A stretch of 56,110 nt of DNA from Hydrogenophaga sp. (GTDB lineage Bacteria > Pseudomonadota > Gammaproteobacteria > Burkholderiales > Burkholderiaceae_C): assembly GCA_016790705.1 (NCBI GenBank), contig JAEUOT010000038.1, positions 1-56,110 on the forward strand. Reading direction: 5' to 3'. The position numbers were made by a program, and so were the translations under genes. Of the stretch, positions 26,772 to 29,677 are shown piece after piece; position 1 is the first letter of the stretch, and every line of letters starts with the position of its first letter. The notes beneath the pieces were generated by a model. It was not told where the DNA came from and ran no database searches. It saw only the letters and a program-made list of their open reading frames with translations.

Positions 26772-28232
26772 ATGATTGCCCGCGAACCCACCCTGGCCCG
26801 ACTGGCCACCGCCGAAAGCCTGCTGCTCACGCCGTACGGCCTGACCATGTCCCACCTGCAGCGCGCGCTGGGCGAGATCGCCTCGTACGGCGCCGACGAT
26901 GCCGACCTCTATTTCCAGACCACACGCAGCGAGGGCTGGAGCCTGGAAGAGGGCATCGTCAAGACCGGGAGTTTCAGCATTGATCAGGGCGTGGGTGTGC
27001 GCGCCGTCAGTGGCGAGAAAACCGCCTTCGCCTACTCGGACGACCTGTCCTGGGAGTCGCTGCTGGACGCCGCCCACACCGTGCGTTCGATCGCCGGCCA
27101 GGGCCAGAGCCGCAAGGTGCGTGTGCCGTCGGTCAAGACCTCGAAATCGCGCTCGCTGTACCCGGGGCTGGACCCTATCGGCACGCTGGACAGCGCCGCC
27201 AAGATCGCTTTGCTGGAGCAGGTGGAAAAGCTGGCCAAGGCGCGTGATCCGCGCGTGGTGCAGGTGATGGCCAGCCTGGCGGCAGAACACGATGTGGTGC
27301 TGATTGCGCGCGCCGACGGCACGGTGGCGGCCGATGTGCGACCGCTGGTGCGCCTGTCGCTGACGGTGATCGCCGAGCAGAACGGCCGGCGCGAGATGGG
27401 CAGTTCGGGTGGCGGCGGCCGTTTCGGACTCGCGTATTTCGACGACGCGACCGTGAATGGTTACGTCGAGGAGGCGGTGTCGTCGGCCTTGACCAATCTG
27501 GATGCGCGCCCCGCGCCGGCCGGGGAGATGACGGTGGTGCTCGGGCCGGGATGGCCCGGCGTGCTGCTGCATGAAGCCGTGGGTCACGGCCTGGAAGGTG
27601 ACTTCAACCGCAAGGGCTCCAGCGCGTTCAGCGGCCGCATTGGCCAGCGGGTGGCGGCCAAGGGCGTGACCGTGCTGGACGACGGTACCATCGCCGACCG
27701 CCGCGGCTCGCTCAATGTCGACGATGAGGGCTGCACCACGCAGAAGAACGTGCTGATCGAGGACGGCATCCTCAAGGGCTACATCCAGGACGCGATGAAC
27801 GCGCGCCTGATGGGTGTCAAGCCGACAGGCAACGGTCGCCGCGAAAGCTATGCCCACGTGCCCATGCCGCGCATGACCAACACCTACATGCTGGGTGGCG
27901 ACAAGAGCCCCGAGGAAATCGTCGCGTCCATCAAGAAGGGCCTGTACGCCACCAACTTCGGCGGTGGCCAGGTCGACATCACCAGCGGCAAATTCGTCTT
28001 CTCCGCCAGCCAGGCCTACTGGGTCGAGAACGGCAAGATCCAGTACCCGGTCAAGGGCGCGACCCTGGTCGGCAGCGGCCCCGAGTCGCTCAAGAAGATC
28101 AGCATGATCGGCAACGACATGCGGCTGGACAGCGGCGTCGGCACCTGCGGCAAGGAAGGCCAGAGCGTGCCGGTCGGGGTGGGCCAGCCGACGCTGCGCA
28201 TCGAAGGTCTGACCGTCGGCGGAACCGCATGA
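26772..28232 (+). CDS. tldD: Metalloprotease TldD
   Basis: TldD forms a heterodimeric zinc protease with TldE/PmbA, which degrades unfolded peptides and matures some modified peptides. The 486 residues contain the HExxxH zinc site HEAVGH (267-272) in LLHEAVGHGLEGDF, plus VDDEGCTTQKNVLIEDG and the C-terminal GSGPESLKKISMIGND. Its partner pmbA is not in the window. A dispersed repeat and the aroG attenuator follow. Confidence 0.97.
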   Translation: MIAREPTLARLATAESLLLTPYGLTMSHLQRALGEIASYGADDADLYFQTTRSEGWSLEEGIVKTGSFSIDQGVGVRAVSGEKTAFAYSDDLSWESLLDAAHTVRSIAGQGQSRKVRVPSVKTSKSRSLYPGLDPIGTLDSAAKIALLEQVEKLAKARDPRVVQVMASLAAEHDVVLIARADGTVAADVRPLVRLSLTVIAEQNGRREMGSSGGGGRFGLAYFDDATVNGYVEEAVSSALTNLDARPAPAGEMTVVLGPGWPGVLLHEAVGHGLEGDFNRKGSSAFSGRIGQRVAAKGVTVLDDGTIADRRGSLNVDDEGCTTQKNVLIEDGILKGYIQDAMNARLMGVKPTGNGRRESYAHVPMPRMTNTYMLGGDKSPEEIVASIKKGLYATNFGGGQVDITSGKFVFSASQAYWVENGKIQYPVKGATLVGSGPESLKKISMIGNDMRLDSGVGTCGKEGQSVPVGVGQPTLRIEGLTVGGTA

Positions 28233-28253
28233 GAGGAGGGAAATCCTCCAGCA

Positions 28254-28334
28254 CACACCGCGGAACCGGCTTTGCCGGGCCGCTGGTGTGGTCCCCCTAT
28301 GGGGGAAGACGCGCAGCGGCGCAGGGGGTGCGCC
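28254..28334 (-). repeat. Dispersed palindromic repeat, copy B (inverted)
   Basis: On the minus strand this reads CACCCCCTGCGCCGCTGCGC, then a C-run/G-run hairpin (CCCCC, then AGGGGG), then ACCACACCAGCGGCCCGGC and GCCGGTTCCGCGGTGTG. It matches copies A (16769-16846) and C (55280-55360) block by block. It lies between tldD and the aroG leader. Confidence 0.85.
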
Positions 28335-28359
28335 TGTAAGGCGCTCGAAATTCTGCCTG

Positions 28360-28368
28360 TGCTACATT
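28360..28368 (+). promoter_or_regulatory. Extended -10 promoter for the aroG leader
   Basis: TGCTACATT is an extended -10 (TGn plus TACATT at 28363-28368). Transcription would start near 28375-28376, only one or two nucleotides before the leader-peptide ATG at 28377. No -35 is evident, which is tolerable for an extended -10 promoter. It lies just downstream of repeat copy B. Confidence 0.5.
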
Positions 28369-28376
28369 CGCGACCT

Positions 28377-28454
28377 ATGCAAACCCGCGCCGCCATCTTT
28401 TTTGGCTTTTACTTTTGGTTCTCGGTCCCCGGCGGACGAGAGGCAACGGTGTAA
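28377..28454 (+). CDS. Aromatic leader peptide of aroG
   Basis: A 25-codon frame starting MQTRAAI. Residues 8-15 are FFGFYFWF: five Phe, one Tyr and one Trp in eight codons (28398-28421). The peptide continues SVPGGREATV to a TAA stop. Such clustering is the hallmark of a ribosome-stalling leader peptide for aromatic amino-acid control. It is followed at once by mutually exclusive RNA hairpins and the DAHP synthase gene. The same frame is open upstream to 28272, but that part lies in the repeat element and has no signal. Confidence 0.82.
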   Translation: MQTRAAIFFGFYFWFSVPGGREATV

Positions 28455-28490
28455 GCGCGCAGAGCAACCGAAACCCTCCAAACCGCCGGG
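28385..28490 (+). promoter_or_regulatory. Antiterminator region of the aroG attenuator
   Basis: Strand 1 is CCGCC at 28390-28394. Strand 2 is CCCGGCGG at 28428-28435, immediately after the aromatic codons. Strand 3 is CCGCCGGG at 28483-28490. Strand 2 can pair perfectly with strand 3 (8 bp, all G-C), which would block the terminator at 28481-28507. Strand 1 can pair with GGCGG of strand 2 and so favour termination. A ribosome stalled early in the Phe/Tyr/Trp run would leave strand 2 free. This fits classical attenuation. Confidence 0.72.
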
Positions 28491-28513
28491 CCCACAGCCC
28501 GGCGGTTTTTTTT
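28481..28513 (+). terminator. Attenuator terminator before aroG
   Basis: A perfect 11-bp stem, AACCGCCGGGC (28481-28491) with GCCCGGCGGTT (28497-28507), loop CCACA, followed by T residues to 28513. It is a textbook intrinsic terminator placed between the leader peptide and aroG, 37 nt before the aroG ATG. Confidence 0.9.
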
Positions 28514-28549
28514 CACCCGTCTACTTTCCAACCCTGCGAGGAGCCTTCG

Positions 28550-29677
28550 ATGAACGCCAAGACCACTGCCGCCAGCGATGCCTGGTATTCGCGGCCTGCC
28601 GACAAGACCAGCCAGACCGACGACCAGCGCATCAAGGACATCACCGTGCTCCCGCCGCCCGAACACCTCATCCGTTTCTTCCCCATTGCCGGTACGCCGG
28701 TGGAAGGTCTGATCAAGCAGACCCGCAGCCGCATCCACGACATCCTGCACGGCAAGGATGACCGACTGCTGGTCGTGATCGGCCCCTGCTCGATCCACGA
28801 CCCGGCCGCCGCGCTGGACTACGCGCGCCGTCTCAAGCCGCTGCGCGAGAAGTACGCCGACACGCTGGAGATCGTGATGCGTGTGTACTTCGAGAAGCCG
28901 CGCACCACGGTGGGCTGGAAGGGTCTGATCAATGACCCCTACCTGGACGAGAGCTACCGCATCGACGAGGGCTTGCGCATCGCGCGCCAACTGCTCATCG
29001 AAATCAACCGTCTGGGCCTGCCGGCCGGCAGCGAATTCCTGGACGTGATCAGCCCGCAGTACATCGGTGACCTGATCAGTTGGGGCGCCATCGGCGCGCG
29101 CACCACCGAGAGCCAGGTGCACCGCGAGCTGGCCTCGGGCCTGTCGGCGCCGATCGGCTTCAAGAACGGCACCGACGGCAACATCAAGATCGCCACCGAC
29201 GCGATCCAGGCTGCGGCACGCGGTCACCACTTCCTGTCGGTGCACAAGAACGGCCAGGTCGCCATCGTGCAGACCAACGGCAACAAGGACTGCCACGTCA
29301 TCCTGCGCGGTGGCAAGGCGCCCAACTACGACGCCACCCATGTGACGGCCGCCATCAAGGAGCTGGAAGCCGCCAAGCTGACGCCCCGGCTGATGATCGA
29401 TTGCAGCCATGCCAACAGCAGCAAGCAGCACGAGAAACAGCTCGACGTGGCGCGCGACATCGCTGCCCAACTGCAGGGCGGTTCGCGCGGTGTCTTCGGC
29501 GTGATGATCGAGAGCCACATTGAGGCGGGCGCCCAGAAGTTCACGCCGGGCAAGGACGAGGTCGCCGACCTGGAGTACGGAAAGAGCATTACAGATGCCT
29601 GCCTGGGCTGGCCGGATTCGCTGCAGGCTCTGGAAGTTCTCTCCGCCGCTGTCGCCGCAGCTCGCGCGCGGCGCTGA
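28550..29677 (+). CDS. aroG: 3-deoxy-7-phosphoheptulonate (DAHP) synthase, class I
   Basis: First enzyme of the shikimate pathway, condensing phosphoenolpyruvate and erythrose 4-phosphate. The ATG at 28550 has GAGGAG 7 nt upstream and gives 375 residues. Family motifs include VVIGPCSIHDP, RVYFEKPRTTVGWKGLINDP, GARTTESQVHR, GFKNGTDGN and IDCSHANSSKQH. This is the AroFGH-type (class I alpha) enzyme. The attenuator upstream has Phe, Tyr and Trp codons, so the sequence suggests control by overall aromatic amino-acid supply. Which E. coli isozyme it resembles in feedback inhibition cannot be told. Confidence 0.97.
   Translation: MNAKTTAASDAWYSRPADKTSQTDDQRIKDITVLPPPEHLIRFFPIAGTPVEGLIKQTRSRIHDILHGKDDRLLVVIGPCSIHDPAAALDYARRLKPLREKYADTLEIVMRVYFEKPRTTVGWKGLINDPYLDESYRIDEGLRIARQLLIEINRLGLPAGSEFLDVISPQYIGDLISWGAIGARTTESQVHRELASGLSAPIGFKNGTDGNIKIATDAIQAAARGHHFLSVHKNGQVAIVQTNGNKDCHVILRGGKAPNYDATHVTAAIKELEAAKLTPRLMIDCSHANSSKQHEKQLDVARDIAAQLQGGSRGVFGVMIESHIEAGAQKFTPGKDEVADLEYGKSITDACLGWPDSLQALEVLSAAVAAARARR

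Follow-up and report, generated by a model that had tools for sequence, protein, structure and literature searches.

What controls aroG, which encodes the enzyme for the first step of aromatic amino-acid synthesis, in this Hydrogenophaga genome, and could the short aromatic-rich reading frame that separates it from tldD be the sensor of a transcriptional switch? We consider it highly probable (roughly 0.88) that aroG is controlled by a ribosome-mediated transcription attenuator. The locus lies in a stretch of 56,110 nucleotides, referred to here as the window, that belongs to a host genome (G000) of 71 contigs and 84.75% completeness, and its AroG protein is 94% identical to the Hydrogenophaga pseudoflava counterpart over the best segment. 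The features on which the argument turns are as follows.

26772-28232, plus strand: tldD, with Pfam PmbA_TldD domains; the 5' neighbour, outside the switch.
28360-28368, plus strand: extended -10-like element TGCTACATT, read from the sequence; the predicted transcription start is at about 28375-28377, at the leader ATG.
28377-28454, plus strand: leader peptide ORF MQTRAAIFFGFYFWFSVPGGREATV and its stop, from ORF translation and comparison with relatives.
28398-28421, plus strand: control codons TTT TTT GGC TTT TAC TTT TGG TTC (F F G F Y F W F).
28416-28428, plus strand: segment 1, TGGTTCTCGGTCC, the predicted 5' arm of a protector hairpin over the last control codons, from RNA folding.
28428-28435, plus strand: segment 2, CCCGGCGG, the 5' arm of the antiterminator, from complementarity, covariation and folding.
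28434-28445, plus strand: predicted 3' arm of the protector hairpin, with a conserved GAGAGG, from alignment and folding.
28483-28490, plus strand: segment 3, CCGCCGGG, common to antiterminator and terminator, from complementarity and covariation.
28480-28508, plus strand: terminator hairpin (segments 3 and 4) of 12 perfect pairs, from an inverted-repeat scan and covariation.
28506-28513, plus strand: U8 tract, read from the sequence.
28538-28543, plus strand: aroG Shine-Dalgarno sequence GAGGAG, read from the sequence.
28550-29677, plus strand: aroG, a class I DAHP synthase (Pfam PF00793, E 4.4e-94).

The leader comprises 25 codons followed by TAA, and its residues 8-15, FFGFYFWF, place seven aromatic residues within eight codons; ORF translation and Pfam thereby agree with a prior sequence-only reading of this DNA, which had located just such a leader between tldD and aroG. 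That reading had also described a perfect 11-bp terminator followed by a U-tract. Both the perfection and the U-tract (T8) are borne out, and the length is corrected to 12 bp, with arms at 28480-28491 and 28497-28508 enclosing a 5-nt loop. The post-aromatic segment that it had expected to pair with 28483-28490 is found at 28428-28435, where CCCGGCGG is an exact 8-nt complement of that stretch. Its broader statement that the parts of a classical attenuator are all present holds as well, since leader, antiterminator and terminator were each found and recur in relatives.

The density of aromatic codons is far from ordinary. No second 10-codon stretch with at least seven Phe, Tyr or Trp residues occurs in any of the six frames of the 56-kb window, and no such stretch arose in 2000 dinucleotide shuffles of 28233-28549 (0/2000), where even six aromatic residues were reached in only 9/2000 (plus strand, three frames). 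Terminator-like sites taken alone are not in excess (2 versus 1.5 expected in 2 kb by a generic scan), and it is the combination and the conservation of the parts, not the terminator by itself, that exceeds chance. A search of the whole window against Rfam returned 0 families at the curated gathering score.

Conservation was assessed in 170 regions upstream of DAHP-synthase genes, made up of 110 loci (including the window and the paralogue L002) and 60 lower-listed homologues; the latter are mostly the best match per genome, and rows below G018 were all omitted, as were a number of second copies. The homologues from the contig scan are the best 80 of at least 591 candidates, and the counts consequently lean towards close relatives. 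One locus that is a copy of the window (L003) was excluded, another with a weaker leader, MKNFLQFGFFKNFLTAPGAAQRV, is absent from the scan counts because the enzyme motif that serves to place the frame was not recognised in it (L061), and 12 regions with an aromatic ORF that lack the CCGCC...GGCGG terminator were left uncounted. An alignment across the Burkholderiales for aromatic codons had been suggested at the outset, and it bears the idea out, as 95 of the 170 regions carry both an aromatic leader ORF and the CCGCC...GGCGG terminator and 75 do not show this combination as defined. In 91 of the 95 a segment-2 core matches the terminator; the four that lack the core by pattern (L009, L017, L041 and L059) have shorter complements of 5-7 nt. 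Start codons are ATG in 92 leaders and GTG in 3. Every one of the 95 leaders contains Phe, 91 contain Tyr and 70 contain Trp, and 69 combine the three residues. Carriers include Hydrogenophaga, Variovorax, Acidovorax, Polaromonas, Comamonas, Rubrivivax, Massilia, Rugamonas, Janthinobacterium, Caballeronia, Trinickia and Burkholderia, and their peptides vary by clade (FFGFYFWFSVPGG, FYFWFSVPGGREA, FYFYFFWHLKPLADREG, FFFTGYFYFSNSNPKAVE) while the layout stays constant.

Within the same upstream-region scan the Polynucleobacter, Cupriavidus and Thauera homologues were without a leader by the criteria used, a Rhodocyclus locus had an aromatic ORF and no CCGCC...GGCGG terminator, and the second DAHP synthase of the host genome (L002) had no leader upstream. 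Five Cupriavidus or Polynucleobacter DAHP synthases of 75-76% identity (L074, L076, L065, L066 and L068) have no leader upstream, which could reflect either lineage-specific loss or a different paralogue. In Candidatus Burkholderia humilis (L099) the leader frame seems to continue through the terminator without a stop, and the switch may therefore be degraded in that symbiont. A contig labelled Anaerolineae (L104) bears an aromatic-rich leader beginning MSRYFSFFSWYGYF 5' of a DAHP synthase, with a differing terminator-like sequence, and is perhaps an independent case.

With tldD immediately upstream and terminator-like sites not rare, the hairpin might be read as the ordinary terminator of tldD and the aromatic ORF as a by-product of U-rich sequence. 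We find this scarcely credible. A tldD match lies within 1.5 kb upstream at 54 of 84 leader-bearing loci, yet the leader is also present at the 30 of 84 where there is none; the aromatic codons are kept while their third bases vary (TTT/TTC, TAT/TAC); a -10-like element stands between tldD and the leader; and segment 2 co-varies with the terminator.

This covariation is clearest at the base adjoining the core, a three-way set across segments 2, 3 and 4 that reads C-G-C in 42 loci and T-A-T in 23. At this position segments 2 and 3 form a Watson-Crick pair in 68 of 91 loci, against a permuted mean of 39.7 (0/10000 permutations as high), and segments 3 and 4 do so in 89 of 91. Agreement between segments 2 and 3 is not above permutation at the second position (59/91 versus 55.6 permuted; 1018/10000) and is weakly above it at the third (34/91 versus 24.1; 69/10000); the 3:4 pairing itself is present in only 70/91 and 30/91 loci at these two positions. 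In an alignment of 62 of the 73 non-redundant leaders (A1) the 2:3 helix has 84.3% of its cells paired versus 81.1% in shuffles (0/500 as high) and 26 cells changed on both sides versus 11.6 (0/500), with no excess of doubly changed pairs (3 versus 2.7). The 3:4 helix has 91.0% of cells paired versus 88.3% (0/500 as high) and four doubly changed pairs versus 1.8 (2/500). For both helices the percentage paired, the doubly changed cells and the covariation score exceed all 500 shuffles, and for neither does the number of pair types do so. Shifting the partner by 1-3 columns lowers 2:3 pairing from 84% to 21-55% and 3:4 pairing from 91% to 31-63%. The five core pairs test little because they hardly vary, and the permutation and shuffle statistics all retain the shared ancestry among loci. 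The compensatory changes that the sequence-only reading had proposed looking for are thus present inasmuch as both pairings co-vary, with some measures falling short of an excess over shuffles.

The spacing of the elements also fits an attenuator. If segment 2 is taken to start 2 nt ahead of the GGCGG core, then in 87 of 91 leaders it lies 9-18 nt beyond the beginning of the last aromatic codon, and in 50 of the 65 measured it lies 13, 15 or 16 nt beyond that of the last Trp codon. A ribosome covers about 12 nt beyond the start of its A-site codon; with that footprint, one stalled at the last aromatic or Trp codon would just abut segment 2 and leave it free, so that the Trp codon sits near the last position from which a stalled ribosome does so. 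In minimum-energy folds of the segment without segment 4 the 2:3 core pairs form in 90 of 91 loci. With a ribosome placed at Trp 14 in the window, 28429 onward is free, and RNA made as far as 28492 adopts the antiterminator fold (-25.3 kcal/mol); once segment 4 is made the terminator becomes the more stable fold, and antitermination must for that reason be kinetic, the antiterminator having to form first. If the ribosome is instead placed at the stop codon, the RNA left uncovered forms the terminator. Untranslated RNA ending at 28491 prefers the antiterminator in these folds, and the full untranslated RNA the protector together with the terminator.

Before segment 3 is made, 28416-28428 (Trp 14 to Pro 18) pairs in the predicted fold with 28434-28445 around segment 2. 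In 56 of 72 loci the stretch that follows the aromatic run carries the complement of the locus's own GRRA 4-mer 3' of segment 2, versus 37.1 when swapped (0/10000), and in 34 versus 19.0 when collapsed to 47 distinct cases. This position-specific test was defined after the data had been seen, and it omits 19 of the 91 loci, which have no such 4-mer. A general search for protector pairing downstream of the aromatic codons was negative, with a mean of 11.8 versus 12.3 shuffled and 12.2 swapped. With one test positive and the other negative, a protector (1:2) helix is likely but less secure than the other elements. A CCGCC near the leader start was also tried as the protector segment, and it is in excess (22/91 versus 5.7 expected) but absent from most loci, and was rejected.

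From these elements, their conservation, covariation and spacing we infer the following mechanism. Transcription would start at or beside the leader ATG, and a ribosome would translate the leader as the RNA emerges. Were charged tRNA-Phe, tRNA-Tyr or tRNA-Trp scarce, the ribosome would stall within codons 8-15; a stall at the later control codons would cover segment 1 and bring the leading edge of the ribosome to segment 2, which could then pair with segment 3 as the antiterminator before segment 4 is made, letting RNA polymerase enter aroG. With charged tRNAs available the ribosome would instead continue across segment 2 as far as the stop codon; segments 3 and 4 would then pair as the terminator, and the transcript would end at about 28513.

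On this mechanism the leader would sense three amino acids, and read-through would respond to starvation for each. Phe probably dominates among them, because it accounts for 420 of the 659 aromatic codons across the 95 leaders. A stricter version, to which we would give tentative but serious consideration, holds that the attenuator is real and senses Phe (almost) alone, the Tyr and Trp codons being passengers, either because the shortage met is mostly one of Phe or because few positions count. The codon share and the presence of Phe in every leader, as compared with 91 for Tyr and 70 for Trp, speak for it, as does the aroR leader of Corynebacterium glutamicum (Phe-Tyr-Phe), for which passages of PMC11802643 report a response to Phe but none to Tyr. 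Against it stand the presence of Trp in 70 of 95 leaders, its position 13, 15 or 16 nt ahead of segment 2 in 50 of the 65 measured, and the co-occurrence of all three residues in 69.

The spacing between promoter and leader differs between groups of loci. We grouped 47 loci as Comamonadaceae-like (L001, L004-L006, L083, L085 and the leader-bearing members of L033-L080; the grouping is our own and includes Rubrivivax and Roseateles), and 46 of these have a -10-like hexamer whose first base lies 15-12 nt upstream of the leader ATG, a number never above 6 in shuffles. The same spacing occurs in 15 of the other 48 loci (shuffles: mean 2.5, at most 9), and Burkholderia and Massilia types show, by eye, a TATAA- or TATAG-like element farther upstream. 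In the window the element TGCTACATT lies about 8 nt before the ATG, and a Shine-Dalgarno-like 4-mer precedes the leader in just 1 of the 95 regions. Because of this -10 spacing and the near-absence of Shine-Dalgarno sequences, the leader is probably leaderless in the Comamonadaceae-like genomes, its translation starting at the 5' end of the RNA.

A further reading makes the aromatic peptide a sequence-specific nascent-chain arrest peptide, or has the leader RNA or peptide act in trans, with starvation attenuation secondary. In its favour are the apparent leaderless start and the Sinorhizobium meliloti trpL peptide peTrpL, which is described as acting in trans (PMC7298713). We hold this to be very unlikely, as the clade peptides FFGFYFWFSVPGG, FYFYFFWHLKPLADREG and FFFTGYFYFSNSNPKAVE diverge while aromatic content and RNA segments are kept, a pattern that codon sensing fits better than does a single arrest peptide. 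Although speculative, and in our view unlikely as a whole, there is a bolder extension of the attenuator: that these leaders form a large attenuator family, independent of the known ones, whose members each read Phe, Tyr and Trp together at the first step, that translation in the Comamonadaceae-like genomes is leaderless, and that the prematurely ended transcript (about 137 nt), along with its leaderless peptide, may additionally act in trans, as described for S. meliloti trpL. Were it true, ribosome and polymerase would be synchronised without a ribosome-binding site in these bacteria.

Codon choice within the leader is skewed as well. Phe is encoded by TTT in 234 of 371 cases in leaders versus 103 of 660 in the adjoining DAHP-synthase genes, the TTT share is higher in the leader than in the DAHP-synthase gene at 81 of 84 loci, and in the window TTT makes up 4 of 5 leader Phe codons versus 1 of 23 in three genes nearby. 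In the leu leader of Salmonella the rarity of Leu codons is said to be important, and by analogy it is reasonable to suppose that the rare TTT is a slow codon that would raise sensitivity; another reading is that TTT would keep the leader RNA unfolded.

To what extent is the arrangement specific to DAHP synthase? A covariance model of the leader (R1), for which we counted only full-length matches and not the partial ones to the terminator part alone that occur in many genomes, has one full-length match in the host genome (E 1.2e-26). Across 300 genomes of the order it matches at full length in 78 places in 77 genomes of 14 families at E <= 2.3e-8. A DAHP synthase lies downstream in all 36 strong matches checked (36 of the 78 places), of which 14 are identical to rows of the model alignment, 2 to loci selected by protein, and 20 were new to the analysis. 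Among 230 genomes searched in the class, two of one family outside the order (G309 and G453) combine the leader and terminator with a DAHP synthase.

Some matches lie elsewhere. Three full-length ones (L224-L226; E 3.4e-8 to 1.1e-7) have no recognisable class I DAHP synthase. At these, in three genomes of family f27, an aromatic leader and terminator-like hairpin precede an ORF of about 200 residues, and Pfam matched nothing in the one copy scanned of the three. The match L227 (E 1.3e-6), as read from the sequence, is a Leu-rich leader close to an ORF resembling leuA and is not before a class I DAHP synthase, four weak full-length matches (L209, L221, L234 and L235) are not before a class I DAHP synthase, and further weak ones (e.g. 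in G511, G526, G448 and G470) fall outside the downstream-gene check. One genome (G235) has two contigs, each with a leader and a DAHP synthase (L228 and L229), through either duplication or mixed assembly. Two loci outside the order (L207 and L208) share GCCGCCAG-type terminator arms with the L032 and L154 family inside it, and joint transfer of leader and gene might account for the likeness.

In the host genome (84.75% complete) a Pfam search for the Trp repressor, the one regulator sought, found none, and the leader may on that account be a main aromatic control there. Upstream of trpE in the same genome (L236, about 1197-1280) we noted by eye a possible Trp leader, MFVSRTISAGFAPGRNGRGAWPWRKPA, with two Trp codons; a TACACT lies upstream of its ATG, and a clear U-tract terminator was not seen. 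More widely, the leader is predicted to govern flux into the shikimate pathway across a large group of bacteria that takes in Variovorax, Comamonas, Massilia and Burkholderia relatives, and the system is well suited to asking whether one leader senses three amino acids and why TTT is preferred.

Several known systems come close to this leader. In the pheL and trpL leaders of E. coli the control codons lie just before the alternative hairpins, and each serves a terminal branch and one amino acid; the logic here is the same, placed at the first common step and with a mixed leader. In Sinorhizobium meliloti, an alphaproteobacterium, trpL is leaderless, reads Trp only and precedes trpE, and the leader described here resembles it in that the peptide probably begins at the 5' end of the RNA.

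Passages of PMC11802643 name the E. coli pheA (pheL) and trp (trpL) attenuators and describe aroR-aroF of C. glutamicum, where a Phe-Tyr-Phe leader acts through ribosome-mediated attenuation and is reported to react when Phe is limiting (Neshat et al. 2014 as cited there); the aroR leader also appears in PMC4046766. Both it and the present case have a leader peptide controlling a DAHP-synthase gene by attenuation, reported there and predicted here. Compared by those descriptions, aroR belongs to an actinobacterium and has three aromatic codons with Trp unmentioned, whereas the leader here has seven including Trp. The uORFC-13-1 motif upstream of Acholeplasma aroF (24 representatives in Acholeplasma and unknown organisms; passages of PMC8632094) is similar in its predicted upstream ORF with one or more Phe codons, followed by a terminator and a DAHP-synthase gene, and differs, as described there, in having a possible ribosome-binding site and at least one Phe, with Tyr and Trp unmentioned. 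For Vibrio, putative attenuators ahead of aroA(I-alpha)-tyrA are listed as a database prediction (PMC1173090, Table 7), likewise of attenuation at a proteobacterial DAHP-synthase operon, in other species.

The passages of PMC5343134 on control of gammaproteobacterial aroG by TyrR and TrpR do not mention an attenuator at aroG, and the main text of PMC2965389 contains 0 mentions each of aroG and DAHP. Our literature search, which lay outside most subscription papers and supplementary lists of attenuators, found no description of a Burkholderiales aroG leader. Attenuation of DAHP synthase is accordingly already known as a principle; the Burkholderiales leader is new to it and widespread, and is a mixed leader of three amino acids with a probable leaderless start.
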